Below are positions 1 to 58,948 of a stretch of DNA of 64,000 nucleotides, piece by piece; positions within the stretch are counted from its first letter, which is position 1; the number at the start of each line of letters is the position of its first letter. A program made the translations under genes and the position numbers. The notes under the pieces were generated by a model. It was not told where the DNA came from. It did no database searches and was given only the letters and a program-made list of their open reading frames with translations. The DNA lies in NCBI GenBank assembly GCA_025060105.1, contig JANXCS010000001.1, positions 42,282-106,281 on the forward strand, in the 5' to 3' direction. This stretch comes from Pseudothermotoga sp. (GTDB lineage: Bacteria > Thermotogota > Thermotogae > Thermotogales > DSM-5069).

Positions 1-120
1 AGTGTGTTGTTGTGTGACAGTTTCATTTGTTGTGTGATTTTCGGTGTTGAAGGTGGTTGTTTTCATTTTGGTTTGCAGGATATCTTTCTGGAGTTGATCG
101 TTCGATGGTTCAGACGTTTG
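1..120. repeat. Copy 1 of 120-bp exact direct repeat inside the FliK-like gene
   Basis: Positions 1-120 are identical to 361-480 over the full visible length, and the copies diverge from 121 and 481 on. The left limit of this copy is outside the window. The 360-bp offset is a multiple of three, so both copies encode the same 40 residues in the same frame. Confidence 0.97.
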
Positions 121-1260
121 TTTGAATAACTTCGAAGGTTCTTTCGAGATAGGAACTTGATTGACCTTTGTTGATTGTTCAAAGGTTTTTGAGGTGAAGG
201 GCGGTTGGTTCGATTGATTCACTGAATTTGAAGGGGCAAGATCGATAACGATCTGCTTTGGATTGTTGGTCAACTGTGCTTCGAGCTTTGTAGTGTGTTG
301 TTTTACTTGTTCAGCTTTGGTGTGTGATGAACTGTCGTCGACATGATTGAGCTTTTGAGCAGTGTGTTGTTGTGTGACAGTTTCATTTGTTGTGTGATTT
401 TCGGTGTTGAAGGTGGTTGTTTTCATTTTGGTTTGCAGGATATCTTTCTGGAGTTGATCGTTCGATGGTTCAGACGTTTGCGAGTTTGAGAAGGCAAGAT
501 CAGTAGAAATTTGTTTTGAGCCATCGTTTGATTGCATGATGCGTTGTTGATAGGATCGTTCAACCTTGATGTGTGATGTTGATTCAACATCGGTTTGGCT
601 TGATTGCTGAGAAAATCTTTGGACAGTTTTGCCTTCATACACCACTTTTGCTTGATCGAGCTCTTGCGTCAAATTGATCATTTTCTCCTGATCAGTCTGT
701 AAACTTTCGATGGTCTGACTGGCATTCAATTTTGAGCTTTGCTCCTTCTGTGTGTTTGAAGCATTTTGTATGGAATGTGAGTCGATGGATTTGCTCGGGC
801 TGTTTGAATATTGTTGCTTTTCAGATTGATTCGACAAAATTTTCTTTTGCTCGTTCTCACTGGCTGGGTTGAACTCTTTTGGAACGTTTTTTAAAGAAAG
901 TGCAGTTTCTTGAAGCTTCGTTTCGAATTTTGATTCTGCATCTTCAGTTTTTTCCTCGATCAAGCTTGTTCGATCATCTTGTTTTTTACTTTCACTTTCC
1001 AAAATATTTGGATCAACCAGTTCTACATTCATCTTTTCGTTCTGTGAGAGTTTCAGAGTATCTTGCACAACGTTCGTTGGCACTTGTTGCACGCTGGGGT
1101 CTACGTTGTTTTTCAACGTTACGAATTGTCCCAACTGTTGGCTCAAAACTTTTTGCTGAACGAGCTTGAGCACATCGATGAAGGAAATTGAGCCTTGTTT
1201 GACGAAGTTTTGTTTTTGAACGACCGGTTGATTCTGCTCACCTACAGGCTGGGGTTTTAT
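1..1260 (-). CDS. FliK-like flagellar hook-length control protein, partial
   Basis: One reading frame stays open on the minus strand from about 1341 to the left edge, roughly 420 codons below position 1260. The visible part is the N-terminal two thirds of a hydrophilic protein very rich in Gln, Ser, Thr, Asn and Lys with almost no hydrophobic stretches, as in the disordered part of FliK. The conserved FliK C-terminal domain would lie outside the window. It directly follows the MotE-like gene, a position where FliK is found in flagellar operons. There is no ATG, GTG or TTG near the expected start; an ATA codon (1258-1260) overlaps the preceding stop as ATAA and follows a GGGGGTGAG ribosome binding site. 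The FliK assignment rests on composition and neighbourhood only. The coding region carries a 120-bp exact duplication. Confidence 0.5.
   Translation of the reverse strand, partial: MKPQPVGEQNQPVVQKQNFVKQGSISFIDVLKLVQQKVLSQQLGQFVTLKNNVDPSVQQVPTNVVQDTLKLSQNEKMNVELVDPNILESESKKQDDRTSLIEEKTEDAESKFETKLQETALSLKNVPKEFNPASENEQKKILSNQSEKQQYSNSPSKSIDSHSIQNASNTQKEQSSKLNASQTIESLQTDQEKMINLTQELDQAKVVYEGKTVQRFSQQSSQTDVESTSHIKVERSYQQRIMQSNDGSKQISTDLAFSNSQTSEPSNDQLQKDILQTKMKTTTFNTENHTTNETVTQQHTAQKLNHVDDSSSHTKAEQVKQHTTKLEAQLTNNPKQIVIDLAPSNSVNQSNQPPFTSKTFEQSTKVNQVPISKEPSKLFKQTSEPSNDQLQKDILQTKMKTTTFNTENHTTNETVTQQHT
361..480. repeat. Copy 2 of 120-bp exact direct repeat
   Basis: This matches 1-120 base for base. 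The flanks are also related at the protein level: both copies have, on one side, a diverged block ending in a Ile/Thr-Asp-Leu-Ala-x-Ser-Asn-Ser pattern. The unit is therefore longer than 120 bp, with one recently homogenised segment. Confidence 0.97.
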
Positions 1261-2228
1261 AAACTCACCCCCCGAAGGACGAGTTTTTGGAAAAGAACGT
1301 TGTTGCGATCTTTGAGTTTTTTCATCAATTCCTTGACTCTCTCAGATTGAAGTTTTGAAAAAAGAACCATGACGGATGATTCATCGAGCGAGAGCGTATC
1401 TATCATACTGAGTATCTCTTCATCGTTCATTTGCCTTAGAAGTTCCACCGAGAGAATTTGAATCAAACTTGCCTCAATCAACGAGGAAAGCTGTGAATTG
1501 ATCTGTTTTTCTTTTTTCTCAAGTTCTTGCTTCAAAGTTGATAGATCTTTGCTTATCTGTTCCACACTGGCGATCTTGTTCATGATTTCTGCTGCTTTGT
1601 TTGGATTCAGTTTTCCAAGTTCGGATATCACATCCGCACGTGTTGTGGCATCCAATTTGGCGACGGCAAAAGCGATAGATTCGACCGAATACTTTTCACT
1701 CGCAAGGATCGGCGCTATTGCGGCAGGATCAGCGCTGGCGATGGTTTGTGAGACCTTCTCGACGTCCTCTGGAATTTGAAGCTTTCTGAGTGCTGTTTCC
1801 AATTGAAGATTCTTTTCTTCCCAAGTTTTTCTCATCTCAAGGATCAGTCTACGCTCAGCTTCGAGTTTTTGTCTGTCTCTCGTGAGTTGCTCTCTTTCTT
1901 GTTTGATCTGTTGCAAGATCTGTTGGGTCCTTTCGGTTGTGGCCGTTGCCATTCTCTCGAAGTATTGCGAAGGTGTGAGTATCTGCAGCGGTTCGTACTT
2001 GACGTATCTGTTCACGTAGGGTATCTTGGAGAGTAAGAATGAAATGTAACTTCGCCAATCTTCCAAAGGTTTAACACCTATACCTTGCAGTCGCTGAAAT
2101 TCAAAGACAAAATACCCGTACACGAGCACGGTGAAACCAAGGAATAAAACTATAGCGAGCGCTTTCATGAACGCCGCAAATCTTTTCTTTTTCTTTTCTT
2201 TCTCCGCCAGAGTTGATCCTCCCAACAA
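1257..2228 (-). CDS. MotE-like / MgtE N-domain flagellar protein
   Basis: A 323-residue membrane-anchored protein. Residues about 17-42 form one transmembrane helix after a basic Lys-rich start. Residues about 96-150 are a charged coiled coil. Residues about 155-220 resemble the superhelical MgtE N-terminal domain (Asp-Pro-Ala-Ala-Ile-Ala-Pro-Ile-Leu pattern), and a second similar helical segment covers about 250-310. This order matches MotE-type proteins that assist the flagellar stator or motor. It is followed with overlap by the FliK-like gene. The first codon is TTG; a good GGGAGGAT ribosome binding site lies inside the first codons, so translation may begin a few codons later, for example at CTG 2208-2210. 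Confidence 0.7.
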   Translation of the reverse strand: MLGGSTLAEKEKKKKRFAAFMKALAIVLFLGFTVLVYGYFVFEFQRLQGIGVKPLEDWRSYISFLLSKIPYVNRYVKYEPLQILTPSQYFERMATATTERTQQILQQIKQEREQLTRDRQKLEAERRLILEMRKTWEEKNLQLETALRKLQIPEDVEKVSQTIASADPAAIAPILASEKYSVESIAFAVAKLDATTRADVISELGKLNPNKAAEIMNKIASVEQISKDLSTLKQELEKKEKQINSQLSSLIEASLIQILSVELLRQMNDEEILSMIDTLSLDESSVMVLFSKLQSERVKELMKKLKDRNNVLFQKLVLRGVSL

Positions 2229-2548
2229 ATTCTTCTCCGAATGTGCAAATGACTCCTAACGAAAGAAAAATTGGACAAGACCTTGTTCCAAGGTTTTTGC
2301 GCCCAAGATCAAGCTCTTTACTTTGTCCCACAACACTGATGAAATTTCCGAGAGGAATTTGAAGCGGATTTTAAACTATACTCGATGCAAAAAACACCTT
2401 CACCAAGCAGGGTGAACTATTTTGTATGAACAGTTTTCCACTGGTACTACATGCCTTGGTGAGCAAGCCTTGACCAAAGTTTACTGGATTGAGTTAGAAC
2501 ACTTCTTGAGAAAATTCAAACTTTGTACTGGCGGGAAGAATGGTGCTC
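2229..2548. other. 320-bp gap upstream of the MotE-like gene
   Basis: No convincing coding region on either strand. On the minus strand there is an AT-rich stretch with TATAGT/TTTAAAAT-like hexamers near 2370-2390 that could serve as a promoter for the flagellar genes, but no good -35 element at normal spacing. A weak inverted repeat (TTGGT...ACCAA) lies near 2457-2478. Confidence 0.4.
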
Positions 2549-2932
2549 TCAAAGACAGACATGTGAAAATTTCTCACTAAAAAAAGAACCAAAAATGTTA
2601 ATGGCCCTATTCAAGGTCCTCGTTGAATTGAAATTCCCAAAGATCACTTCATCTTTCGTGCGAATCTCAATTTCTCTGGATTTTCCTTCATAAATGGTGA
2701 TCTTTGTGACTTTTTCGAGCGGTGTCGTGAAGTTTTTACTTTTATCTTGAAGACATTCGAAGATGACATCATCGTTCGAAAGACACATTTTGAAAAGCTC
2801 GTTCTTGAAGAAACCTTTTCGAAGGCTAATGTTGAACGATGGTATTTTCTTTCCAGCCACGCAATCACCCCAATGTGGTTTAAAGTTTAGGTGAAAATGT
2901 TCGAGCAAGATACACCAAACGGTTTTTGTCAT
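2549..2932 (-). CDS. Small protein of unknown function
   Basis: A 127-codon frame with a plausible amino-acid mix. The C-terminal half alternates beta-type strands (Lys-Ile-Thr-Ile-Tyr-Glu-Gly, Arg-Glu-Ile-Glu-Ile-Arg, Glu-Val-Ile-Phe-Gly) and ends in a helix, which resembles small PH- or GRAM-like beta folds; this is inference. The first ATG has no visible ribosome binding site, and the N-terminal third, rich in His, Trp and Cys, looks less protein-like, so the true start may be internal. It is divergent from the HTH gene at 3003 and shares its upstream region. I do not recognise the family. A degraded gene is possible. Confidence 0.4.
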   Translation of the reverse strand: MTKTVWCILLEHFHLNFKPHWGDCVAGKKIPSFNISLRKGFFKNELFKMCLSNDDVIFECLQDKSKNFTTPLEKVTKITIYEGKSREIEIRTKDEVIFGNFNSTRTLNRAINIFGSFFSEKFSHVCL

Positions 2933-2951
2933 TGACGTTTTTTGTCATTAT

Positions 2952-2982
2952 TTGTGACACGATCTAGTTCGTGGTGTAAACT
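2952..2982 (+). promoter_or_regulatory. Promoter with palindromic operator candidate before the HTH gene
   Basis: An exact inverted repeat CACGA-N6-TCGTG (2958-2973) lies between a TTGTGA hexamer (2952-2957) and a TAAACT hexamer (2977-2982), 20 nt before the TTG start at 3003. A palindrome between -35 and -10 of a regulator gene suggests autoregulation. The promoter hexamers are weak and spaced 19 nt apart, so this is tentative. Confidence 0.45.
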
Positions 2983-3002
2983 AATTTCAAGGAGAGATCA
3001 TT

Positions 3003-4508
3003 TTGAATTTTGCCCAAAGGCTCAACCTGTTGATGAACCTCCTTGAAATATCCAACAGTGTGCTCGCTAAAGCCTTGTCAGTTGATCCTTCTTTGATCAG
3101 CCGATGGCGTACAGGAGCACGCACACCTTCCAAGGATAGTCCATATTTGGATCGAATAGCTCATTATGTGTCTCACCACGCAAAGTTGGATTTTCAAAAG
3201 AATGCCATTTGTAGTTTGATTGGTGTCAAGCTGGAAAATTTATCTGAAGATGAATTTTCACAGATATTAAAAAGTTGGCTCGTTGAACCACTCGTTTCGA
3301 ACGCAAAACTTGTCGAGGATCTTTTGAGCAAAATAGAAATATTCAAATCTCCTCAGCGAACTTTTGAGAAAACAGATCCGATTCTGGCTGGACAAAAGAT
3401 CAACTGCGAAGTCTTTTATTCGATCGAAGGCAAGAGAAAAGGTGCGTTGAAATTTTTCTTTCTCGTTGCAGAATGCAAATTCCCTGGAGAACTTTTTCTT
3501 TACAGCGATGAGCACATTTCGTGGTTCACTGAGGACAAGACTTACATGCTTCAACTGGCCAACACTGTGATTTCGCTGGCGAAGCTTGGATGGAAAGTTA
3601 ACATGGTCCACACAGTGAGTAGAGACGTTTCCGAGATGATGAAAGCGATCGAGTTCTGGTTGCCTTTGTACATGACAGGTTCTGTGGTTCCCTATTACAA
3701 TCCAAGATATCGAGAACATTATTTCAGAAGGACGCTTTTCGTGGCACCAAAAGTGGCCGCTTTTTTGTGTACAACGTTTGAAGAAAGTCAGAAGGAAACC
3801 CCAAGTTTTCTTTTCACAGAGCAGCAGATAATCGATCTGATGGCTATGGAGTACGAAAGATTTTTGAAATCGTGTCAACCTCTGATGATAATTCCTCAGA
3901 TAGGCTCTGAAGAAATGTTCTCGCTGCTCGAAGGGTTCGAAGAACAGCCCATGGCTGGATACATCATCAGCGATGGCTTACCACTCGTCACGATGCCCGG
4001 CTCTGTGCTAGAAAAAATTTTGAAGAGAAATCGCATCGAACCTGATCGAATATTCTCTCACTGGCGAAAGAGATCGGCTTCCTTTGAAAAAAATCTCAAA
4101 TCGTGCCATCAAGTTCACGTTTGCACTATGCCAGATTTGGAAAAGGTGAGATCTGGAAAAATGATCGTGGAGCTTCCAGAGTCCAGTTTCGAATTGCACT
4201 ACGATGAGGATGAGTATGTTGAACACTTGGCCAGCACGATTGAATTCATCAAGAAATACGAAAACTACAGTTTTTATTTGTCTCAAAGGAATGTCACCAG
4301 CAACGTGCTCGTTTCTGTGAAAGACCAAACAGGCGTAATCGTGATCAAGAAAGACTCACCTATTCGGTTGTTTGCAATCAATCAACCTGATATGACCAAC
4401 GCTTTCTATTGCTATGCCGAAGATTTCATTCACAGATTACCCCAGCAGTGCAAAGATAGATCGTACGTCATAGAACAGCTCGAATCGGTCCTTAAAGAGC
4501 TGCTTTGA
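3003..4508 (+). CDS. HTH (XRE-like) N-terminus with large domain of unknown function
   Basis: A 501-residue protein. Residues about 10-50 form a helix-turn-helix of the XRE type (Ser-Val-Leu-Ala-Lys-Ala-Leu, then Ser-Leu-Ile-Ser-Arg-Trp-Arg-Thr-Gly). The rest has no domain I can name. A central conserved-looking stretch has Trp-Phe-Thr-Glu-Asp, Ile/Val-His-Thr-Val-Ser-Arg-Asp, Phe-Trp-Leu-Pro-Leu-Tyr-Met-Thr-Gly and Tyr-Asn-Pro-Arg-Tyr-Arg. I recall similar patterns in uncharacterised HTH proteins of clostridia. The start is TTG with AAGGAGAG six bases upstream. It overlaps or abuts the Ppx gene. Probably a DNA-binding sensor; its ligand and targets are unknown. Confidence 0.7.
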   Translation: MNFAQRLNLLMNLLEISNSVLAKALSVDPSLISRWRTGARTPSKDSPYLDRIAHYVSHHAKLDFQKNAICSLIGVKLENLSEDEFSQILKSWLVEPLVSNAKLVEDLLSKIEIFKSPQRTFEKTDPILAGQKINCEVFYSIEGKRKGALKFFFLVAECKFPGELFLYSDEHISWFTEDKTYMLQLANTVISLAKLGWKVNMVHTVSRDVSEMMKAIEFWLPLYMTGSVVPYYNPRYREHYFRRTLFVAPKVAAFLCTTFEESQKETPSFLFTEQQIIDLMAMEYERFLKSCQPLMIIPQIGSEEMFSLLEGFEEQPMAGYIISDGLPLVTMPGSVLEKILKRNRIEPDRIFSHWRKRSASFEKNLKSCHQVHVCTMPDLEKVRSGKMIVELPESSFELHYDEDEYVEHLASTIEFIKKYENYSFYLSQRNVTSNVLVSVKDQTGVIVIKKDSPIRLFAINQPDMTNAFYCYAEDFIHRLPQQCKDRSYVIEQLESVLKELL

Positions 4509-4540
4509 AGATAGGTCAAGTAGGATTTGAGGTGAAGGTG

Positions 4541-5419
4541 ATGGTGGCAGTACTCGATCTTGGATCAAATTCTTTCATTTTACTCGTTCAGCACAACGGC
4601 GAAGTGATATTGGAAGAAGTCTATGAAGTCGGCTTGAAGTCGATTTCGGATGAAGAAAAAGCTTTTGAAACGGCGAGTGAGACGATTCTACAGATGAAAA
4701 AGAAAATCGGAGATACAATCATGTATGCATTCGGGACAGCCGTTTTCAGGGAAAGACCAGCGCTGTTTGAAAAGATAATCAAAACCTTCAATTTGAAGGG
4801 GGAGATCTTGTCCGAGGAGGACGAAGCGTACTTCACGTACATGAGTGTGGATCCAAACTTTGAGCAGGACATAACGGTGCTCGATCTCGGTGGGGGAAGT
4901 TTGGAAATAGTGACGAAGGATTGGTTCAAAAGTTTGCCCGTTGGGACGCACGTTTTGAACAGCTTGTTCAACTTGTCTCTCCCTCATATGGAGCAGTTCA
5001 GTGAGGCTGTCAGATACGTTGAGGAGAAGATTCCTTTCATCAAAAATCCTGTGGGTGTGGGCGGATCGTTCGTTACCATCGCCGCGATGAAGTTGGGAAG
5101 GTGGGATTTGAAGCTTCTGAACGGCTTGATCCTGAACGCTTCGGATGTTGAATTCTCGTTGAAATTATTGAAAGGTAAAAGTTACGGAGAAGTACGCGGC
5201 TGGGGGATCATTCCAGTTGGCAGAGAGAAAACGATCGTGGCCGGATGTGTAGTAGCGATGGCTGTAGCAAAATTTGGACCGATCAGAGTTTCAACGAAAG
5301 GTTTCAGACACACCCTCGCAAGTATGATTGAAAGGGGAAAGATAGAGAGACCTTGGCGTGCCCGGGGAGATTTGAACTCCCGGCCTCCAGATCCGCAGTC
5401 TGGCGCTCTATCCAGCTGA
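4541..5419 (+). CDS. Ppx/GppA family phosphatase (exopolyphosphatase-like)
   Basis: About 292 residues, matching the single actin-like Ppx/GppA domain that hydrolyses polyphosphate or pppGpp. Nucleotide/phosphate loops are visible: Asp-Leu-Gly-Ser-Asn-Ser-Phe near residue 6, Gly-Thr-Ala-Val-Phe-Arg near 67, and Asp-Leu-Gly-Gly-Gly-Ser-Leu-Glu near 114. The ATG at 4541 is preferred because GAGGTGA lies five bases upstream; an upstream TTG at 4505 lacks this. The last about 22 codons, including the TGA, run through the antisense strand of tRNA-Arg (5354-5430), so the C-terminus is dictated by tRNA sequence. The enzyme lacks the C-terminal HD domain of long Ppx proteins. Confidence 0.8.
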   Translation: MVAVLDLGSNSFILLVQHNGEVILEEVYEVGLKSISDEEKAFETASETILQMKKKIGDTIMYAFGTAVFRERPALFEKIIKTFNLKGEILSEEDEAYFTYMSVDPNFEQDITVLDLGGGSLEIVTKDWFKSLPVGTHVLNSLFNLSLPHMEQFSEAVRYVEEKIPFIKNPVGVGGSFVTIAAMKLGRWDLKLLNGLILNASDVEFSLKLLKGKSYGEVRGWGIIPVGREKTIVAGCVVAMAVAKFGPIRVSTKGFRHTLASMIERGKIERPWRARGDLNSRPPDPQSGALSS

Positions 5420-5430
5420 GCTACGGGCAC
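5354..5430 (-). tRNA. tRNA-Arg (anticodon GCG)
   Basis: The reverse complement folds as a complete cloverleaf: acceptor GTGCCCG/CGGGCAC, D arm AGCTCAGCTGGATAGAGC, anticodon stem CCAGA/TCTGG with loop CTGCGGA, T arm with GTTCAAATC, discriminator G and encoded CCA. Anticodon GCG reads CGC (and CGU by wobble). It lies four bases downstream of tRNA-Ser and is transcribed with it. The convergent Ppx gene overlaps its 3' half. Confidence 0.97.
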
Positions 5431-5434
5431 GCAC

Positions 5435-5527
<93 letters not shown>

Positions 5528-5539
5528 GGGCCAACCTTC

Positions 5540-5567
5540 ATTATAATACAACTCACTGAAAATGCAA
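5540..5567 (-). promoter_or_regulatory. Promoter of the tRNA-Ser/tRNA-Arg unit
   Basis: On the minus strand TTGCAT (5562-5567) and TATAAT (5540-5545) are 16 nt apart, and the -10 ends 12 nt before the mature 5' end of tRNA-Ser. A perfect -10 and the short leader are typical for stable RNA genes. Confidence 0.8.
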
Positions 5568-5601
5568 ATATTCATCGTAAAAGCCTCTGTGAAGAGCTCT
5601 C

Positions 5602-7005
5602 TCACTTCTTTAAGTAATGTTCCTTCATTTTTTCATTGAAAGATAGGCTCAATATTTCGTCGATCACTTTCTGCACTTGATCGTAGGACCTAGTTCTAGG
5701 ATCTCTCAAAAGGATCTCCTCGAGAACTCTTCTGTCCGCAGAAATGAAAGCTTCAAGGGCCCATTCCATTCTCAAAATTCTTGGAAGCAAGTAAAATTTC
5801 ACGATCCTGTTCGTCAACGGTGGGTCAATCTTTTCCGGATGCAGGCCATCTTTATCAACTATCACTGGGATCTCAACAACGATATCGTTAGGGATGTCTG
5901 GAATGGCACCGTTGTTTTCAACGTTCAAAACTAACCTTGATTTCTCTCCGTTAACGATCGCGTTTATGAAAGGAATGTGCTGTTCTATACTACTATCTGC
6001 GCTTCGAAACACTTCTGGCCAGACCTTCGTGAGTTCGATTGAAGGATCTTTTTCCACTTCCTTGGCTAGCTGCAACAATTTTTTTCTAGTTCGCCTCAAC
6101 TGTTCGTAGAACTTCAACCTTTCAACTTCGTTGTCTATTCCACCGTACTCGCCGTACCACTTTCTCTTCGTTTGTAGATCGAAATGGTATTTCCAACCAC
6201 CCGATCTGACAGTATCTCCTATCGGATACATACCGTAGAATCTGTACAGATCTATTGCGGCTGGTGAAAAATCTAGGTCCCAGGGATCTTTAGGTTTCCA
6301 ATCCTTGGAGTGTTTTTCGATCCATTCGTTCAGTAGTGGATAGGCGTCTTTTCCATCACACTTGAACCTGTTCAACCATATCGCATGATTGACACCAGCG
6401 ACTTGCCAGTCTAGCTTTTCGATGTCTAGCCCTATCGTTCTGGCCAAGTTGAACACGTGGGCATAACCATGGCAGAAACCAACGATTTTCGCTTCAGTGA
6501 GTCTTTTGACCAACTGAGTGATCTCGAAGACTGGATTGGCGGTTTGCAATATCCACGCATCGGGCGCAAACTTTTCAACAGCCTTTGCGATATCGAGACT
6601 CAGCTTCAATTGATTGTAGTTTGAAATCGTATAGTAGTCTGAGACCATGTTGAGTCCATCGTTGTCGATACCCCTATAGTAGCCGTGCTTCTCTCCAACA
6701 TTCCTGACAATCTCATACTGCACGTATCCATCTTCGTGACCTTCGGCTCTCGCGAGAGCAGTGTTTATGACGAAATCAGCACCTTCGAGAGCCCTTTCAA
6801 GTTGTGTTGTACTTTCGATCTCAAATTGTGCATTGAGCTCACTCAAATACTTTCTGACGAGAATATAGGTGGCTTGCAATCTTTCTTCGTCCACGTCCAT
6901 GAGTGTCAACTTTGAACCATAGAGATTCTTCTGAGTCGAAAGATCCCCAGCAAGTTTCAGTGTGTAACGAACACTGCCTGCTCCTACGAAAACGATGTTC
7001 ACCAT
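5602..7005 (-). CDS. Glycoside hydrolase family 4, probable alpha-glucuronidase
   Basis: GH4 enzymes cleave glycosides by an NAD+ and Mn2+ dependent redox mechanism. The N-terminal Rossmann loop (Val-Gly-Ala-Gly-Ser, near residue 7), Gln-Thr-Ala-Asn-Pro near 154, the metal-binding motif Cys178-His179-Gly-Tyr, and Gly-Val-Asn-His207 are all present. CHGx is the variant I associate with the alpha-glucuronidase subgroup, and the protein resembles T. maritima TM0752 along its length, including the C-terminal Asp-Pro-Arg-Thr-Arg-Ser region. ATG 7005 is chosen because GGTGAT lies just before it; ATG 7017 is also in frame but has no binding site. Likely used in xylan or glucuronide breakdown. Single gene, no sugar transporter next to it. 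Confidence 0.85.
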   Translation of the reverse strand: MVNIVFVGAGSVRYTLKLAGDLSTQKNLYGSKLTLMDVDEERLQATYILVRKYLSELNAQFEIESTTQLERALEGADFVINTALARAEGHEDGYVQYEIVRNVGEKHGYYRGIDNDGLNMVSDYYTISNYNQLKLSLDIAKAVEKFAPDAWILQTANPVFEITQLVKRLTEAKIVGFCHGYAHVFNLARTIGLDIEKLDWQVAGVNHAIWLNRFKCDGKDAYPLLNEWIEKHSKDWKPKDPWDLDFSPAAIDLYRFYGMYPIGDTVRSGGWKYHFDLQTKRKWYGEYGGIDNEVERLKFYEQLRRTRKKLLQLAKEVEKDPSIELTKVWPEVFRSADSSIEQHIPFINAIVNGEKSRLVLNVENNGAIPDIPNDIVVEIPVIVDKDGLHPEKIDPPLTNRIVKFYLLPRILRMEWALEAFISADRRVLEEILLRDPRTRSYDQVQKVIDEILSLSFNEKMKEHYLKK

Positions 7006-7156
7006 GTGCATCACCATCCAAACATTGTACTACGTCTTTCAAGTCCAATTAGGGCTTCAAGTGAAAATGTTTCATCCGTTCTATTGAAGCCTCAGTATCA
7101 ATTGTGAGATTATTATTTTCAACTGATGATTGATTTTTCACAAACTCAAAAAACAC

Positions 7157-7186
7157 TTGACACAATCTTGAAACTTATGGTAACAT
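7157..7186 (+). promoter_or_regulatory. Consensus-type promoter for the diguanylate cyclase gene
   Basis: TTGACA (7157-7162) and TAACAT (7181-7186) with 18-nt spacing, 45 bases before the ATG at 7232. This is one of the clearest promoters in the window. Confidence 0.75.
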
Positions 7187-7231
7187 ACAAATACAAAAGT
7201 ACGCCATTTGAAAATGGAGTGAGATGTTACG

Positions 7232-8482
7232 ATGGGTTTTTCAAGTAGATATGTTCGTATCCTTTTTTATTTGTTGATCTTCTCAACATTGTTTTTCATC
7301 GCACGTTATAACTATGTTTTCTATCATACAATCATTGAATTTTTTGCCATCTTCACAGGTTTATCAATCACGTTGATTTCAGCAGCAACTCGCGGACTCA
7401 CTCAAAACAAGATCTTCATAAAATTTGGCATTCTGTATTTTTTTGTAGCGGTGATAGACTTTTTACACACCCTCGCGTACAAAGGTATGGGTGTTTTTCG
7501 TGGTTGGACTGCGAACCATCCAACGCAGTTTTGGATCGCCGGAAGGTTGTTAGAAACGATCGGATTTTTTCTCATTTTGTTTTTTCCAAAATTAAAAGAA
7601 CGAATTATTTTCGTTTCGTGTGGTGCGTTGAGTGCTCTATTCATCTTCACTATCTGGTTTGGCTTTTTCCCAGATTGCTTCATCGAAGGTTCTGGTTTGA
7701 CTCCTTTCAAAATAACCATGGAATATGTGATGATAGGTATTTTGTTCGTTACTTTATTGAGGGTTTTTAAATGTAGCGATTCATCGATATCACCTTTCCG
7801 AAAATCTGTGATTTTGGCTATCGTCTTCACTATGTTGGGGGAGTTGTCTTTCACTCTCTACACTGATGTATATGGCTTTTTCAACTTCCTCGGACATGTG
7901 TTCAGATTCATCTCTTATCTGGTGATTTTGATTGGTGTTATAGTTGATTCTCTGAGAAAGCCTGTTAAAGCTCTGCTGATCGAGCTCGACGAAGAAAAAG
8001 AAAAACTCCAACAAATGGCTCATAAAGATCATCTCACGGGGTTGTACAGTAGAAATTTTTTCAACGAATTGATCCAGAAGCAAGTTTCGACTGCTTTGCG
8101 ACAGATAGTTCCTCTTTCATTTCTCATGATCGACGTGGATGATTTTAAGCAAACAAACGATACCTTTGGCCATTTAGTGGGCGATGAAGTGCTCAGGTTC
8201 ATAGCACGCAACATAGCCAGTTCAATCCGCGCTTCAGACATAGCCGCGCGCTACGGTGGAGATGAATTCATAGTTGCCTTCTATAACACAACTGAGCAAC
8301 AAGCGTTGCAGATCGCTGAGAGAATAAGAGAAAAAATCAGAAACTCCAAAGAACTCGGCTTTGGTGTGGATATCAGCTACGGTGTGGCACAACTCGATTC
8401 GGGCCAAGACTACATGAAAACTCTTCAAAAAGCCGATGAGGCCATGTATGCCATGAAAAAGTCCAAAAAGAAGGCTTCTTAG
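7232..8482 (+). CDS. Membrane diguanylate cyclase (MASE3-GGDEF)
   Basis: A 416-residue protein that should make cyclic di-GMP. Residues about 1-240 hold seven or eight hydrophobic helices with the MASE3-type pattern Phe-Leu-His-Thr-Leu-Ala-Tyr-Lys-Gly-Met near 78-87. A short coiled linker follows, then a GGDEF domain from about 255. The active-site loop is intact (Arg-Tyr-Gly342-Gly-Asp-Glu-Phe346), and Arg333-Ala-Ser-Asp336 five residues before it is a product-inhibition I-site (RxxD). So the enzyme is probably active and feedback-inhibited. Monocistronic, convergent with the next gene, with its own strong promoter. Confidence 0.9.
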   Translation: MGFSSRYVRILFYLLIFSTLFFIARYNYVFYHTIIEFFAIFTGLSITLISAATRGLTQNKIFIKFGILYFFVAVIDFLHTLAYKGMGVFRGWTANHPTQFWIAGRLLETIGFFLILFFPKLKERIIFVSCGALSALFIFTIWFGFFPDCFIEGSGLTPFKITMEYVMIGILFVTLLRVFKCSDSSISPFRKSVILAIVFTMLGELSFTLYTDVYGFFNFLGHVFRFISYLVILIGVIVDSLRKPVKALLIELDEEKEKLQQMAHKDHLTGLYSRNFFNELIQKQVSTALRQIVPLSFLMIDVDDFKQTNDTFGHLVGDEVLRFIARNIASSIRASDIAARYGGDEFIVAFYNTTEQQALQIAERIREKIRNSKELGFGVDISYGVAQLDSGQDYMKTLQKADEAMYAMKKSKKKAS

Positions 8483-8589
8483 CAATTTTCTTGCTCACTC
8501 TTCATCGTTGAGATTCGAGTACATTTGCTTGCGTTATATACTTCGAATGCTGGCAGAAACAAAAAATGATCTATGTTCCACGTTTAACG

Positions 8590-9552
8590 TTACACTATCT
8601 TCATTATTTGCGAAAGTTCTTGTCTGTTCCTTGCACTCTTTTCTGCTTCGAGATGCTTTTCGTTCAATTGATCAAACTTTCCCCATTTACCGATGGCTAT
8701 CAGCGTTATGACGTTACCATCTATGTCAAAAAGCTCTTTCACTTTTACAGGATCGTATCCGGCCACAGGGTGTGCAATCAGTCCCATCTGAGTTGCCTGG
8801 ATCAGTAAAAATCCCACCGCTAGGCCTGTATCGAACAGCGCGTAGTTTCTATTTTCGCTCAGCTGACAATCAAATTCGTCTTTTGTATAGACAACGACGA
8901 TTGCAGGTGCGTACTTCATCCAGTAGTTCCCCCCAGAAAGAGCTTCGTGCAGCTTTCCAAGGTATTCTCTGCTCCTCACTACAATGAACCGCCACGGTTG
9001 CTTGTTAGCACAAGAGGGAGCAAGATGAGCCGCTTCGATGAGCCTTAAAAGCTTCTCATCTTCGATCGGTTCAGATCTCAAACCACGAAAGGCTCTCCTT
9101 TGGAAGATGGAGGGATTGATCGACAAATCTTCTTCAATCGTTTTTTTGAACTCTTCAAGCACTTGTTTGGCGTGGGTTGAAGCTTTCACGTTGAACCATT
9201 CTTTTCTGATTCTACCCCATGGATCAGTAATGAAAGTTGATCTTGAAAGTCTACCATTTTTGACGATTCCTAGTTGACTTGCCAGTTCCATCTTCACGTC
9301 CGAAAGCAATTTAAATTTGAGTCTGTGTTTCGTTTTGAAAAGGGCAATAACCTCTGGTAGATCTAGTGAGATTGCCACGATGCGCTCATCGAATTCTTCG
9401 AACAGTTCGTTGAATCGTTCTGCTTGCATTGTAGATGTCGATGTGCCGATCTTTGGATAGAAATGAAGTACCCAATAGTCTCCCAATAAATTTGTCAGTG
9501 CGAAATCCCGACCATTCTCATCTTTTAAGATCGTTGTAGGAAGCTTTTTCAT
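8590..9552 (-). CDS. Peroxiredoxin-like domain fused to nitroreductase; peroxidatic Cys replaced
   Basis: A 320-residue fusion. Residues about 1-140 follow the BCP/PrxQ peroxiredoxin fold (Phe-Tyr-Pro-Lys near 31-34, Ile-Thr-Asp-Pro-Trp-Gly near 107). Residues about 148-320 are a nitroreductase domain (Arg-Arg-Ala-Phe-Arg, [10 protein letters not shown], Gly-Leu-Ile-Ala-His-Pro-Val). T. maritima has such a fusion, in which the nitroreductase is thought to supply electrons to the peroxiredoxin. Here the position of the peroxidatic cysteine is Ser40 (codon 9433-9435) and the Prx part has no cysteine at all, so thiol peroxidase activity is not expected. Its ATG overlaps the preceding gene's stop (ATGA), so it is co-transcribed with the 2-oxoacid oxidoreductase genes. 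Confidence 0.88.
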
Positions 9553-10379
9553 GCGATCAACCCCCTATAAGCGATGGGAGTTTTATTGGTTTTGTACGCG
9601 ATCAACTGTTCTTCAAAAACTGGTTTGCTTGGATTTTTGTATATCACACCCAGTGCGAATTTTTTCGTCTCTGTCGCGATTCTGAACGCTTGAACTCTAT
9701 CAGTTGGATCGTAACTGTCTGGCAGGATATAGGTGTTTTCTTTGTACCATTCGTAGGTGTTCAGCTTGTTGAACGAGACACACGGTTGAAAGACATCGAC
9801 CAAGGCATAACCTTTGTGTTGGATCGCTTGCTTGAAGATTTCCACCGTCAGATCGAGATAACCTGAGAAAGTTCGAGCCACAAAGGACGCGTCCAGAGCG
9901 ACAGCCACAGCGATGGGGTTGAACGGATCCACGTAAACGCCATCGATTTGGAGCGTGGTGATCTGACCACGCATGGTCGTCGGTGAAGCTTGCCCCTTCG
10001 TTAAACCGTATATCTGATTGTTATGAACTATGTTCGTTATGTCTGGATTCTTCCTGATCGTATGAATGAAGTGATTTCCCCCTTCTCCGTAGCTACATCC
10101 ATCTCCACTTTCAGCGATCACTACCAGTTCTGGATTGGCCATTTTTATTGCGACCGCAGCGGGTAGAGACCTTCCATGTAAACCGTTGAACATGTGTGCT
10201 TTAACGTATTGTGGCATCTTCGCAGCTTGGCCTATCCCAGAAACTATGACGACGTTCTGCGGTGATAAGTTGAGCTGTGCAAGAGCCGTTTTCAAAGCTC
10301 TCATGATACCAAAGTTACCACAGCCTGGACACCACGCGATGTCAGCGTTCGGTATATCGTAATCGTTGGGCTGAAACAT
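9549..10379 (-). CDS. 2-oxoacid:ferredoxin oxidoreductase, beta (TPP) subunit
   Basis: A 276-residue thiamine-pyrophosphate subunit. It shows Cys17-Pro-Gly-Cys20-Gly-Asn, the TPP/Mg motif [12 protein letters not shown] near 93-104, and [11 protein letters not shown] near 120. With the fused gamma-alpha subunit encoded just upstream it should oxidise a 2-oxoacid to the acyl-CoA and reduce ferredoxin. The KorB-type length and pattern point to 2-oxoglutarate or a broad 2-oxoacid substrate rather than pyruvate; the exact substrate cannot be read from sequence. It starts directly after the upstream stop codon. Confidence 0.9.
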
Positions 10380-12065
10380 TCATTCCACCTCCAGTTTTTC
10401 TCGAACTGCTCTCAAAACTTGCTCAACTGAGTATGGAAAACCATCGTATTTGAGTATCCTGTTCGATGTGTCCATGCAGAAAGTTTGTTTGATGAGATTG
10501 GCGAACTGCCCAGTAGCGTTCTGCTCAATGAAAATGATCTTTTTAGCTTTTTCAAAGAACCTCTTGGCTGTGGGAGGAACAGGATAAACTTGTGGAAAAT
10601 GCAAGTGAGCGATTTTATCGTTACCGAGTGATCTTAGAGCTTCTCGAACGATCAAAAAGGTTGAACCCCAGCTCACCAGGAGTAATTCGTAATTCTCTGA
10701 GCCGAAGAATCTGGGCGTCAAAGACTCTTCAACTATTCTCTTGAACTTTTTCAAACGTTTTTCCACCATCATCTTTCTCACGGAGGCACTTTCAGTGATG
10801 TGCCCGAACTCGTCGTGTTCGTCGCTGTCCACTCGTACCAGGCCATCCCCGTAACCAGGTATGCCCCTCGGTGAAATACCATCCTCGGTGATCTCGTAGC
10901 GGCGATAGTTCTGGTTCGTTTTAACGATGTGCCTCTCGATGGAAACCTCGGGTAGTTGGTCTACAAGATAGTAAGAATCCAAAAGGTACTGATCGGTCAG
11001 AATGAAAACAGGTATTTGAAACTTGTCGGCCACGTTGAACGCGCGTGCGGTGAGTTCATACGCTTCTTCTATGCTTCCTGGTGCATAAACAACGCGTGGA
11101 AATTCTCCATGACCAGCGTAGAGCACGAGGTTGAGATCTGCTTGTTCTGTTCTCGTTGGAAGTCCAGTTGCAGGACCGGGTCTCTGACCTAAGTGTACGA
11201 CGATGGGTGTTTCGATCATTCCAGCCAAGCTGATCGCTTCGCACATGAGAGCAAAACCTCCGCCGGACGTCGTCACTAAACCACGTGCTCCGGCGTACCA
11301 AGCCGCGATGACCATGTTCGCTGCGGCGATCTCGTCCTCGGCTTGCTCGACCAAGATCCCATGACTTTTCGCCATCTTCGCAAGTTCTGTGAACACGACT
11401 GTGGAAGGCGACATGGGATAAGAAGAAACGAAATTGCAACCGGCTGCGACCGCACCGAGCGCGACGGCTTTTGAACCGCTGAGCAAACGTTTATGTTTGA
11501 CCTCTTCGCACCTAGTCAATTCTAGCTTCAAGTTCAAAGATCTTCCTATCTCGTAACCTTTCAATGCTGCGGAAACGTTCGCTCCTATGATCTCTTTCGA
11601 TCTAGTTGAGAAGTGTTCTTCGATGTTCTTTTTCAGAGCCTCAACGTTGAGGTTCATGATGCCTGCGAGTACACCTGTAGCTACAGAGTTCGCGTAGATA
11701 CGGTTGCCAAAACTCTCCGCAATCTTTGAAAAATCGATGATAACGTGATTTGGTTCGTTCCTTACGAATTTTTCCTCACCAAGCACGATCGTTGAATCGT
11801 TCATTCGCCATCTGAGTCTGTCTATGGCGTTTTCGTTGAGTACAACGAGTAAATCGATCCGATCGATGTTGGCGTGAACAGGTTCGCAAGAGATCCTCAG
11901 CGTCGTAGAATTGTTTCCACCACGAATGCGAGACATGTATTCCTTCGTTGCAAAGACGTACAAGTCCGAATCTTTAATCACTCGAACCAGTATCTCTTCA
12001 ACTGTTTGAATGCCTTGCCCAGCAGCTCCACTCAATACAACGCTGATTTCTTTCTTTTTTTCCAC
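10380..12065 (-). CDS. 2-oxoacid:ferredoxin oxidoreductase, fused gamma-alpha subunit
   Basis: About 561 residues. The first ~180 residues are the gamma (CoA-handling) domain (Ser-Gly-Ala-Ala-Gly-Gln-Gly-Ile-Gln near 11-19), and the rest is the alpha pyrimidine-binding domain (Asn-Phe-Val-Ser-Ser-Tyr-Pro-Met-Ser-Pro-Ser, then Glu-Gln-Ala-Glu-Asp-Glu-Ile-Ala-Ala). This KorA architecture works with KorB as a two-subunit enzyme using external ferredoxin. The start is GTG 12063-12065 with GGAGGTG five bases upstream; the frame extends another 24 codons upstream, but without a binding site and towards the terminator of ggt. First gene of a three-gene unit ending in the Prx-nitroreductase fusion. 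Confidence 0.9.
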   Translation of the reverse strand: MEKKKEISVVLSGAAGQGIQTVEEILVRVIKDSDLYVFATKEYMSRIRGGNNSTTLRISCEPVHANIDRIDLLVVLNENAIDRLRWRMNDSTIVLGEEKFVRNEPNHVIIDFSKIAESFGNRIYANSVATGVLAGIMNLNVEALKKNIEEHFSTRSKEIIGANVSAALKGYEIGRSLNLKLELTRCEEVKHKRLLSGSKAVALGAVAAGCNFVSSYPMSPSTVVFTELAKMAKSHGILVEQAEDEIAAANMVIAAWYAGARGLVTTSGGGFALMCEAISLAGMIETPIVVHLGQRPGPATGLPTRTEQADLNLVLYAGHGEFPRVVYAPGSIEEAYELTARAFNVADKFQIPVFILTDQYLLDSYYLVDQLPEVSIERHIVKTNQNYRRYEITEDGISPRGIPGYGDGLVRVDSDEHDEFGHITESASVRKMMVEKRLKKFKRIVEESLTPRFFGSENYELLLVSWGSTFLIVREALRSLGNDKIAHLHFPQVYPVPPTAKRFFEKAKKIIFIEQNATGQFANLIKQTFCMDTSNRILKYDGFPYSVEQVLRAVREKLEVE

Positions 12066-55898: not shown

Positions 55899-55920
55899 GT
55901 TTCAGTCGGGAGTGATGCGT

Positions 55921-56988
55921 TTGACGATCAATGAAGCAAAATTTCTCTGCAAGAAGATCATGGAGGCTGGAGAAGTTCCACTGCTCGTAGGGCACTTCGG
56001 TGTAGGAAAAACAGATATAGCAAAGCAAATCGCCATGGAAACTGGTAGAAAGATCATCATACTCATCCTTTCGCAGATGGAACCTGGTGACTTGATAGGC
56101 CTTCCTTCGCGCCAGGAGGATAGAACAGTCTTTCTGAAACCAGATTGGTGGCCAGAAAGTGGTGAATGTCTCATCGTCTTGGACGAGATAAACCGTGCCC
56201 ACAGATCGATAAGAAATGCAATCATGCAATTGCTCATAGACCGTCGTATACACAACCACATCCTCCCAGAGGGAGTCTGGATCATGGCTACGATGAATCC
56301 ACCAGACGAAGAATACGACCAAGCAGATCTAATAACAGATCCAGCGTTCATATCTCGTTTTTTCGTTCTCCATGTGAGCCCGACGGTGGAAGAATGGAAA
56401 GAATGGGCGAAGATCAATGGAGTCGATCGATGCGTTATAGAGTTCATCGGTAATTATCCTGAATTTCTTTATGTGAATTCTCCAATGTCATTACGCGTTG
56501 AACTGAAGCCAAGTCCGAGGAGCTGGTACAAACTGAGCAACGTTTTGAGACTGCTTTCGGAAGAGGAAATCGCTAGGTATGGTTACACTCTCGCGTCAGC
56601 CATCGTTGGACCGGAAGCTGCGAAAGCGTTCATCGAGTTCAGTGGTTCAGAATCAATACCCATGCCGCGCAAGGTACTATTGGAAGGTTTGGAAAAGGCG
56701 TATGCGATCGAGGATGTGGACAAATCAAACTCGCTCGTCGTGAGATTGATAGATTATCTTTCAAAATTGAGCGATCAGGAAGTAGAGTTTTTATCATCGC
56801 ACGTTACAAGAGTGGCTCAGAATATAGATAGGTTATCCTCAATATTACCTAGAGATTCCTTCTACGCGTTGATAAGGTTCATAACAGATAAAGCCAACAA
56901 TGGTGAGCACCACTCACAATTTTTCGAGCTTTTGCTGGAGAAACTTTCTGCTTTTGACAGCACGAGGACGGCTTTGAAGGATCTATGA
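55921..56988 (+). CDS. MoxR-type AAA+ ATPase
   Basis: About 355 residues. Walker A Gly-His-Phe-Gly-Val-Gly-Lys-Thr-Asp near 22-30, Walker B Cys-Leu-Ile-Val-Leu-Asp-Glu-Ile-Asn near 82-90, sensor 1 Met-Ala-Thr-Met-Asn-Pro-Pro near 120, and an arginine-rich Ile-Ser-Arg-Phe-Phe near 143. MoxR ATPases act with VWA proteins as chaperones that mature or activate enzyme complexes. TTG 55921 has GGGAGTG six bases upstream; an in-frame ATG at 55915 overlaps that site. The stop overlaps the next start (ATGATGG). Confidence 0.85.
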   Translation: MTINEAKFLCKKIMEAGEVPLLVGHFGVGKTDIAKQIAMETGRKIIILILSQMEPGDLIGLPSRQEDRTVFLKPDWWPESGECLIVLDEINRAHRSIRNAIMQLLIDRRIHNHILPEGVWIMATMNPPDEEYDQADLITDPAFISRFFVLHVSPTVEEWKEWAKINGVDRCVIEFIGNYPEFLYVNSPMSLRVELKPSPRSWYKLSNVLRLLSEEEIARYGYTLASAIVGPEAAKAFIEFSGSESIPMPRKVLLEGLEKAYAIEDVDKSNSLVVRLIDYLSKLSDQEVEFLSSHVTRVAQNIDRLSSILPRDSFYALIRFITDKANNGEHHSQFFELLLEKLSAFDSTRTALKDL

Positions 56989-58163
56989 TGGACAAGATAC
57001 TGGCTAAACTGGCGAAACGTTCACCTTTCTACATGTACTTGTTTTTGAACATGTCTAGACGTCCCTCGCTTGAAGCAGAGAAATTGTATATTTCCTTGAA
57101 GAATGGCAAATTCACTGTTGTGTACAATCCGAGATGGGTCGAACAAAAGCCAGAACAGTTCGTTGAAGCTTTTTTGATCCATCAACTCATGCATCTGATA
57201 AATCTTCATTTTCTCATTAAACCGAAGGATGATCGCGATAGAGCGATATGGGATCTAGCCATGGACGCAGCGATCAATCAACACATTCCTGAGCTGGCAG
57301 CGTTTGGAGTACCATTAAACTTGCTCGTAGAAGAAGGTCACGGTGTGGACAATGAGAATTTGTTCGTGCTTCCACCTGATTGGATGCCCAATAAGAGTGC
57401 TGAAGAGTACCACGAGTGGATCGTGCAAGAGATGGAAAAACTTGGTCGATTCGATGTTGTAGTTGTAGCAAAAATGAGGGAGAACAGATTCGATTCCCAC
57501 AGCGAAATGTTTGCGGAGCATGATACAGACATGATCCTTGAACTCAGTCAGAGTCTCATTTCAAAAGCTTTCAACCTTTATGGAAGTGAACTCCCATCTG
57601 GTGTGCGCAGAATGGTTGAACTTTCCATTCTCAGGCCTTTCTTGAATTGGAAAGATACTCTCAGAAGGTTTGCAGGTGTTTCCGAGTACGGTGAGCGATA
57701 CCTCACTCCTTTGAAACCGAACAGGAGATATCAGGATCAACCGGGGTGGAAAGTTGCAAACGCAGCAAGGCTTGGGATCATCGTCGATACTAGCGGTAGC
57801 ATAATTCAAGAAGAATTGGATGTTTTTTTCACAGAAATAGAGTCATTATCACGCTACGTGGATACAACTCTCATCTTAGTCCAAGTAGACAGGGCCGTCA
57901 ATTTGAAAGTGAATTACACCAGAGGCATGTGGAGGAATATGCAGATCATCGGGGGTGGCGAAACGGATCTTCAACCTGCAGTGGATTACCTCGAACATAA
58001 CCATAGGCCTGAAGGTATTGTCATCTTTACGGATGGTTTTGCAGATCTTCCGAAAGTGAAAAGGAGAGTATTGTTCATATTGTCAAAGTATCACAACGAT
58101 GAATTCATCACCCAAGCACGTAACACTTACGGTCGTTCAAGTGTGGTGGTGCTCAGTTGGTGA
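56985..58163 (+). CDS. Metallopeptidase-like plus VWA-like protein (DUF2201 type)
   Basis: A 392-residue partner of the MoxR ATPase. The N-terminal half resembles the zinc metallopeptidase-like DUF2201 region, with His66-Gln-Leu-Met-His70 and His75 where related proteins often have His-Glu-x2-His. The C-terminal half (about 258-392) is a VWA fold with an intact MIDAS start Asp268-Thr-Ser-Gly-Ser272, Gly-Gly-Gly-Glu-Thr-Asp near 323 and Phe-Thr-Asp-Gly near 347. It likely binds a divalent metal and a client protein. Overlaps both neighbours, so the three genes are made together. Confidence 0.83.
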   Translation: MMDKILAKLAKRSPFYMYLFLNMSRRPSLEAEKLYISLKNGKFTVVYNPRWVEQKPEQFVEAFLIHQLMHLINLHFLIKPKDDRDRAIWDLAMDAAINQHIPELAAFGVPLNLLVEEGHGVDNENLFVLPPDWMPNKSAEEYHEWIVQEMEKLGRFDVVVVAKMRENRFDSHSEMFAEHDTDMILELSQSLISKAFNLYGSELPSGVRRMVELSILRPFLNWKDTLRRFAGVSEYGERYLTPLKPNRRYQDQPGWKVANAARLGIIVDTSGSIIQEELDVFFTEIESLSRYVDTTLILVQVDRAVNLKVNYTRGMWRNMQIIGGGETDLQPAVDYLEHNHRPEGIVIFTDGFADLPKVKRRVLFILSKYHNDEFITQARNTYGRSSVVVLSW

Positions 58164-58948
58164 ACTTTGGTCCAAAGAGTATCACAAACAAGCTCAGTAA
58201 AGCTTTGGAAAAGATCGAAGTGAGTAAGTTATTGAGCCAAATGGAAAATTTGAAAGAGAAGTTGGATCAATATCACAAGCATGTAGTGCTGGCTTCTGTT
58301 GGTGAGGTTCATGGTTTCTATCTTTTTGGTGCCGTAGATCACCTCGGTAGGAAGTTGGCGGGACTCTCGATCTCAAATCCTTTCGAGAGAAATTTACCCA
58401 TATACGTACTTCAACAGCAGGTGAGTTTTGCCGAGATTTATGAAGAGTTATTTGGTATCCAACCTCAATTTCATAGGTGCGGTATTGTGAAGCTTCCCTT
58501 AAATTTCAAAGCGATTTGTGTGGTAGGGGATGAAGACTTTCTTGGTAAAGAAATTTTCAAAGAGAAAGTCTACGGAGAGAAAAAATTGTCCTTTGCAGAG
58601 ATAATAGATGAGCTCATTTACAACAAGCTGAAAGCTCTCAACAGCTCAACGATAGGTTTAATAAAGATCCGTTTGCTCGATGAAGGGATACTTTGTTTGG
58701 TGGAGGTTCCAAAAGACATCGACAGATCCCACGTACCTCTACTGGCAGAAATAGCTCACATTCTCAAAGGGAGATATACATTCACTTGTAGGACAAAATA
58801 TCAAAGTATAGTTTCGGCAGCGCCTGTATTGACAAGTTTGTGTATTGATTATGAGCATTTTCTCAGAGGATTCGACGTAGGAGCTTTTTGCCAAGAATTT
58901 TCAAACAAGTTGATGAAAGCTTACGAATGTGTTTTGCGAGCGATTTAA
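58157..58948 (+). CDS. Unknown third protein of the MoxR-VWA operon
   Basis: A 263-residue soluble protein with mixed alpha/beta character and no signal peptide or membrane helix. Recognisable local patterns are Val-Gly-Glu-Val-His-Gly-Phe-Tyr-Leu-Phe-Gly-Ala-Val-Asp near 48-61, Cys-Val-Val-Gly-Asp-Glu-Asp-Phe-Leu-Gly near 121-130, and seven cysteines spread without CxxC pairing. I do not recognise a family. It starts inside the VWA gene end (TTG 58157 or GTG 58160), so it is very likely functionally tied to the ATPase pair, as a client, regulator or adaptor. Confidence 0.7.
   Translation: MVNFGPKSITNKLSKALEKIEVSKLLSQMENLKEKLDQYHKHVVLASVGEVHGFYLFGAVDHLGRKLAGLSISNPFERNLPIYVLQQQVSFAEIYEELFGIQPQFHRCGIVKLPLNFKAICVVGDEDFLGKEIFKEKVYGEKKLSFAEIIDELIYNKLKALNSSTIGLIKIRLLDEGILCLVEVPKDIDRSHVPLLAEIAHILKGRYTFTCRTKYQSIVSAAPVLTSLCIDYEHFLRGFDVGAFCQEFSNKLMKAYECVLRAI

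Follow-up and report, generated by a model that had tools for sequence, protein, structure and literature searches.

To our knowledge, few of the pairs that MoxR ATPases form with VWA proteins have known clients. The NorQ-NorD, CbbQ-CbbO, and RavA-ViaA systems each combine a MoxR ring with a VWA protein that has an N-terminal domain and a C-terminal VWA domain, and they act on dedicated clients. In NorQD, the VWA protein inserts a finger into the pore of the hexameric MoxR ring, and rotation powered by ATP stretches this partner against its own N-terminal domain (PMC13036017). A pair from jumbo phages, for which peptidolysis and a role in virion assembly have been proposed, places a metallopeptidase domain N-terminal of the vWA domain (PMC7824862). 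In the MoxR-vWA ternary conflict systems, the two proteins share one operon with a fast-evolving third protein (VMAP, iSTAND, FtsH, or beta-propeller) and variable effectors (PMC7159879). Of the nine MoxR subfamilies, one is named after TM0930, and seven, this one included, are reported to be associated with VWA proteins (PMC11432383).

We analyzed a 64,000-nucleotide stretch of a Pseudothermotoga sp. genome (the window), which carries three consecutive genes on the forward strand, called from open reading frames and Pfam domains. The first (M, 55915..56988, 357 aa from an ATG start) encodes a MoxR-type AAA+ ATPase; the second (V, 56985..58163, 392 aa) encodes a protein with an N-terminal zincin-like domain (DUF2201_N) and a C-terminal VWA domain (DUF2201); and the third (D, 58157..58948) encodes a DUF4895 protein (PF16236) of 263 aa from a TTG codon, or 262 aa from the alternative GTG at 58160. 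M and V overlap by 4 bp, and V and D by 7 bp from the TTG or 4 bp from the GTG. The sequence GGGAG, resembling a Shine-Dalgarno site, closely precedes the ATG of M at 55915. The gene 5' of M, named by eye as rlmN-type, has the opposite orientation, and 3' of D there is a hairpin whose T-rich tail lies on the minus strand. An initial annotation of this DNA had placed three overlapping same-strand genes correctly (with M from 55921, near its start at 55915) and had taken them to be made as one unit. The comparison among genomes agrees with a translationally coupled operon: V and D are adjacent in 38 genomes, and because the overlap is exactly 4 bp in 32 of these and 7 bp in three, its recurrence is not a matter of chance. 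M likewise overlaps or adjoins V in nearly all of the 54 genomes.

M matches AAA_5/MoxR in Pfam (E=8e-11) and conserves every expected motif: Walker A (GHFGVGKT), Walker B (LDEIN), sensor-1 (MNPP), the Arg finger (ITDPAFISRF), and sensor-2 (PSPRSW). It thus has the AAA_5/AAA_3 domain, Walker motifs, sensor-1, and Arg finger by which a MoxR AAA+ protein is recognized. The second M match in the same genome is a distant MoxR, and a search with D found a single locus. M is 79% identical to its counterpart in Pseudothermotoga sp. RSWP20, and the nearest M relatives indicate a Pseudothermotoga-type host within Thermotogota, which bears out the Thermotogales setting proposed at the outset. M also shares 62% identity (474 bits) with its counterpart in genome G090, which we take to be T. 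maritima MSB8. There, M, V, and D are followed directly by a ferredoxin gene and then by a gene read as dnaA. Since the T. maritima ferredoxin is TM0927 (PMC4694547, PMC9431562, PMC8880783), we infer from gene order that M, V, and D correspond to TM0930, TM0929, and TM0928. The M-V pair is therefore already known in outline, and calling the unit undescribed, as the initial annotation did, does not hold for the pair as such, given the named TM0930 subfamily (PMC11432383) and the jumbo-phage pair (PMC7824862). The link to DUF4895 is the part that appears new: the open papers we consulted on the TM0930 subfamily mention neither this third component nor the co-loss from three loci and loss of a catalytic Glu described below.

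V matches DUF2201_N, a putative metallopeptidase domain (E=4e-9), and the VWA-like DUF2201 (PF09967, E=5.6e-13), so the MoxR and VWA assignments first read from the sequence both stand. Its MIDAS motif (DTSGS) is intact, with D268, T269, S270, and S272 invariant in an alignment of 62 V sequences. In overall design M-V resembles NorQ-NorD, CbbQ-CbbO, and RavA-ViaA, the ring being assumed here by analogy; it differs from them in the zincin-like character of the N-terminal domain of V, with its invariant metal ligands, and in a candidate client, D, that is neither a known respiratory enzyme nor a Rubisco enzyme. The jumbo-phage pair has the same two-gene layout and domain order but is phage-borne, and no DUF4895 protein has been reported with it.

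The initial annotation saw no recognizable family in the third protein, and here it was wrong: D matches PF16236 (DUF4895) with E=9.9e-63 and 212 bits over nearly the whole model, against a gathering score of 25 bits, and a DUF4895 search was positive in a Thermotoga maritima control. Pfam assigns DUF4895 no function, and the literature we searched does not mention it. The structure prediction and remote homology search that had been suggested for this gene gave a confident model and the family, and no function. AlphaFold2, run with a 74-sequence alignment, modelled D as an alpha/beta protein with a pLDDT of 94 and a pTM of 0.88, and residues 20-143 modelled alone reached 92.6 pLDDT. Foldseek returned nothing significant for the full model or residues 20-143 against the PDB, or for the full model against BFVD; the best structural or remote matches had E values of 0.025-0.4 and low TM scores. 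A PDB sequence search with D gave no significant relative, a contig scan with D alone as query gave no match, and a Pfam scan of 74 members found nothing convincing besides DUF4895. The predicted fold of D is possibly new. We had considered a secretion-chaperone/ARPC4-like fold for the N-terminal domain, whose alpha-beta3-alpha-beta2-alpha order resembles such folds; ARPC4 was a match to the full model (probability 0.63) but absent among the matches listed for the N-terminal domain alone, and we set the assignment aside. A metal or active site built on the polar conserved residues H42, Y83, K131, and E198 was likewise rejected, as families f4, f5, and f7 (our labels) have no consistent set. 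The 74-sequence alignment has no invariant column and, between close pairs, the evolutionary rate of D is about double that of M, with V at about the rate of M.

We then evaluated the occurrence of the three genes in 103 Thermotogota genomes, using a profile from the 74 D sequences, with chance matches removed, and one from 62 V sequences. D was found in 85 genomes, V orthologs in 84, and M in 83, the lone V without M belonging to an 81%-complete assembly. The co-occurrence that the initial annotation had proposed to examine is strong: 82 genomes have both V and D, 16 have neither, three have D only (G005, G007, G046), and two have V only (G048, G055). Weak D-profile matches in G008, G009, G057, G054 (contig C53), and G055 were discarded as chance, their sequences being those of other proteins. 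PF16236 had no match in about 190 genomes from other phyla, and V-profile scores, at least 280 bits within Thermotogota, did not exceed 81 bits elsewhere; the V subfamily is, by sequence, restricted to Thermotogota. All 32 relatives of M found among 84,980 species genomes in a pattern-limited search were also Thermotogota. V-like proteins outside the phylum are distant and mostly paired with MoxR, and their neighbors vary from case to case.

The arrangement of the genes differs among families. M, V, and D form one operon in f1, f3 (Thermotogaceae), f4, f9 (Kosmotogaceae), and f11, and also in f5, judged by coordinates that place D just downstream of M and V. In most f10 (Petrotogaceae) genomes, M and V are together and D is elsewhere. 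The three genes lie apart in nearly all f2 (Fervidobacterium/Thermosipho) genomes and in f10 genus g32, where all are retained in single copy; M and D are still close together in two f2 genomes. The families come out as groups in the V tree. No genomic neighbor beyond M, V, and D themselves was shared in our comparison across families.

Genus g32, which includes Marinitoga lauensis, has six genomes with M, V, and D at three loci, and one, G043 (two contigs, 99% complete), with none of them. Compared with its sister G039, the flanks of all three sites in G043 are in place: 54 bp remain between those of D, where G043 also lacks an insertion-sequence-like gene present in G039, 125 bp are left at the V site, and the flanks of M abut. 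A tblastn search of G043 for remnants of M, V, or D gave only a meaningless 19-residue match. With the genes present throughout the phylum and the families grouped in the V tree, the sequences point to a loss here and not an ancestral lack. That one lineage should have dropped genes at three loci separately is difficult to account for if M, V, and D do not serve a single function. G043 is the one genome with such a clean co-loss; absence from G064 was considered but carries no weight, since the whole neighborhood gave no match in that assembly. The D gene of Marinitoga lauensis (G041; L181 3954-4757 (+)) is frameshifted in its assembly, though 83-89% identical to its sister, which reflects either a sequencing error or recent decay.

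On these grounds we favor, with slightly more than even confidence, a housekeeping, Thermotogota-specific MoxR-VWA remodelling machine made of M and V, with D as its dedicated client or an obligate third subunit. Because the trio is retained or lost as a set, even where its genes are dispersed around the chromosome, D is probably what the machine acts on, in keeping with the initial annotation, which had named it a good candidate for the client or adaptor. The working that we propose draws on the NorQD mechanism (PMC13036017). M would form a hexameric AAA+ ring, and V would dock on it through the VWA domain, as in NorQD and RavA-ViaA. The N-terminal zincin-like domain of V, with its metal ligands kept and its catalytic Glu dispensable, would grip D, and ATP-driven movement of M would pull or twist V against this domain. 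D would thereby be remodelled, that is, matured, loaded, or dissociated.

The nearest competitor, doubtful in our estimate but of appreciable weight, makes D an adaptor or co-chaperone that passes a separate, unlinked client, such as a ferredoxin or Fe-S enzyme, to M and V. Co-loss and translational coupling fit it equally well, and D has no catalytic signature and about twice the rate of M, as is usual for recognition subunits. Ferredoxin TM0927 stands next after D in Thermotoga and one sister genus (PMC4694547, PMC9431562, PMC8880783), and class I fumarase-like genes, identified by eye, occur near D in many f9 genomes. Yet no neighbor is common to the families, the ferredoxin being linked only in genera g12 and g13, and an adaptor should vanish once M and V are gone. 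D is kept in three such genomes. G046 is near-complete and, on an unbroken contig, lacks M-V where the pair would be expected, with the upstream neighbors present, and f7 genomes G005 and G007, both incomplete, have a distant D and no M or V. D is therefore not useless alone. Occurrence of the third gene without the pair, which the initial annotation had named as counting against its reading if widespread, is limited to these three of 103 genomes. The converse, V and M without D, was not convincingly found: the contigs of the sisters of G048 end shortly after D, G055 is in 520 contigs, and in G054, D is cut by a contig end. Since a client may persist after its helper is lost, whereas nothing would keep a helper in place once its client is gone, we prefer, with modest confidence, D as client to D as adaptor. 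A client other than D is possible, given the family-specific neighbors of D (the ferredoxin in Thermotoga) and the ScpA-ScpB-like genes near M in f2.

Two neighborhoods of D are described here in their own right. A [4Fe-4S]-type ferredoxin gene (L156 5699-5911 (-)) and then a dnaA-like gene directly follow D in L156, L005, L007, L011, L013, L014, L016, L028, L158-L161, L166, and L167; this arrangement was not seen in other families. In f7, the distant DUF4895 homologs without M or V (L176 6053-6910 (-); L177 2471-3361 (+)) are both beside genes that appear, by eye, to encode rsmD, a ROK kinase, and an ornithine carbamoyltransferase, possibly an older context of D.

It is unlikely that M and V are instead an unfoldase and peptidase, with M feeding a substrate, D or another protein, to the zincin domain of V for cleavage. 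Most of the phylum has an HExxH motif with invariant His ligands, T. maritima V keeps HEVMH, and there is the precedent of peptidolysis proposed for the phage pair (PMC7824862). The corresponding motif in the window is HQLMH: the catalytic Glu is replaced by Gln, and V here does not have the HExxH of a zincin metallopeptidase. Classical HExxH catalysis in zincins requires this Glu. The label metallopeptidase given by the initial annotation is thus misleading for this species. Glu67 is Gln or His in nine of ten f1 genomes, in f4, in f5, and in one f3 genome (G098), and is present elsewhere; the V tree needs three changes to account for this. All three lineages, the window's among them, have kept M, V, and D together. 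Across the phylum (62 V sequences), the residues of metal-ligand type, H66, H70, H75, and D94, are invariant. As Glu67 was lost three times while the ligands did not change, proteolysis is not the shared task of V in the Glu-less lineages, and a peptidase is a strained reading for f1, f4, and f5. Metal binding and shape may be what is conserved in the zincin domain.

Less likely still is that D is a mere passenger of the operon with an unrelated function. Three genomes have D alone, and the operon has been broken up in f2 and f10, as such a reading would allow, but all three genes were kept after the break-up and all three were precisely lost from separate loci in G043, which leaves it strained. 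Least probable, and largely refuted, is the toxin/defence-like module of the initial annotation: M-V-D does share with the ternary conflict systems (PMC7159879) a single operon of MoxR, VWA, and a third protein that is fast relative to M, but it is a vertically inherited, phylum-wide core set with one copy per genome and no paralogs, variable effectors, or effector-domain turnover, D is last in the operon where VMAP is first and convincingly matches only DUF4895, PADLOC matched neither V nor D and gave M no more than weak, generic AAA hits, and the bpMoxR model stayed under its cut-off (16.6 vs 27 bits). Most of both the passenger and the toxin/defence reading is thus excluded.

Other DUF2201 loci were encountered during these searches. 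Within Thermotogota, L195 (G102, 74-5605 (-)) has a second, distant DUF2201 VWA gene followed by about ten tandem genes for small, partly similar-looking proteins, mostly of about 110-130 aa. Outside the phylum, L191 (G208, 3412-10723 (+)) has a MoxR-DUF2201 pair and then a run of similar-looking proteins of about 225-260 aa, apparently of alternating types. Genome G006 (f7) carries a distant MoxR-DUF2201 pair in duplicate (L088 and L089, with L185 1144-4815), and a large protein nearby apparently begins with a TIR-type motif; these pairs, unlike M-V-D, may be a conflict-type system.

Returning to D as client of a remodelling machine, we offer tentatively a fuller version: DUF4895 would adopt a new fold, a MoxR-VWA machine specific to the phylum would have it as its only client, the pseudo-peptidase metal domain of the VWA partner would be the client clamp, and the maturation step would be one kept by almost all Thermotogota and shed whole by one lineage. 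For the TM0930 branch, for which we found no client, D is one concrete candidate, open to testing with heterologously produced, heat-stable proteins. The V proteins show that a metallopeptidase domain can repeatedly lose its catalytic residue with the system still intact, and DUF4895 stands out as a confidently predicted, structurally unmatched protein found throughout the Thermotogota.
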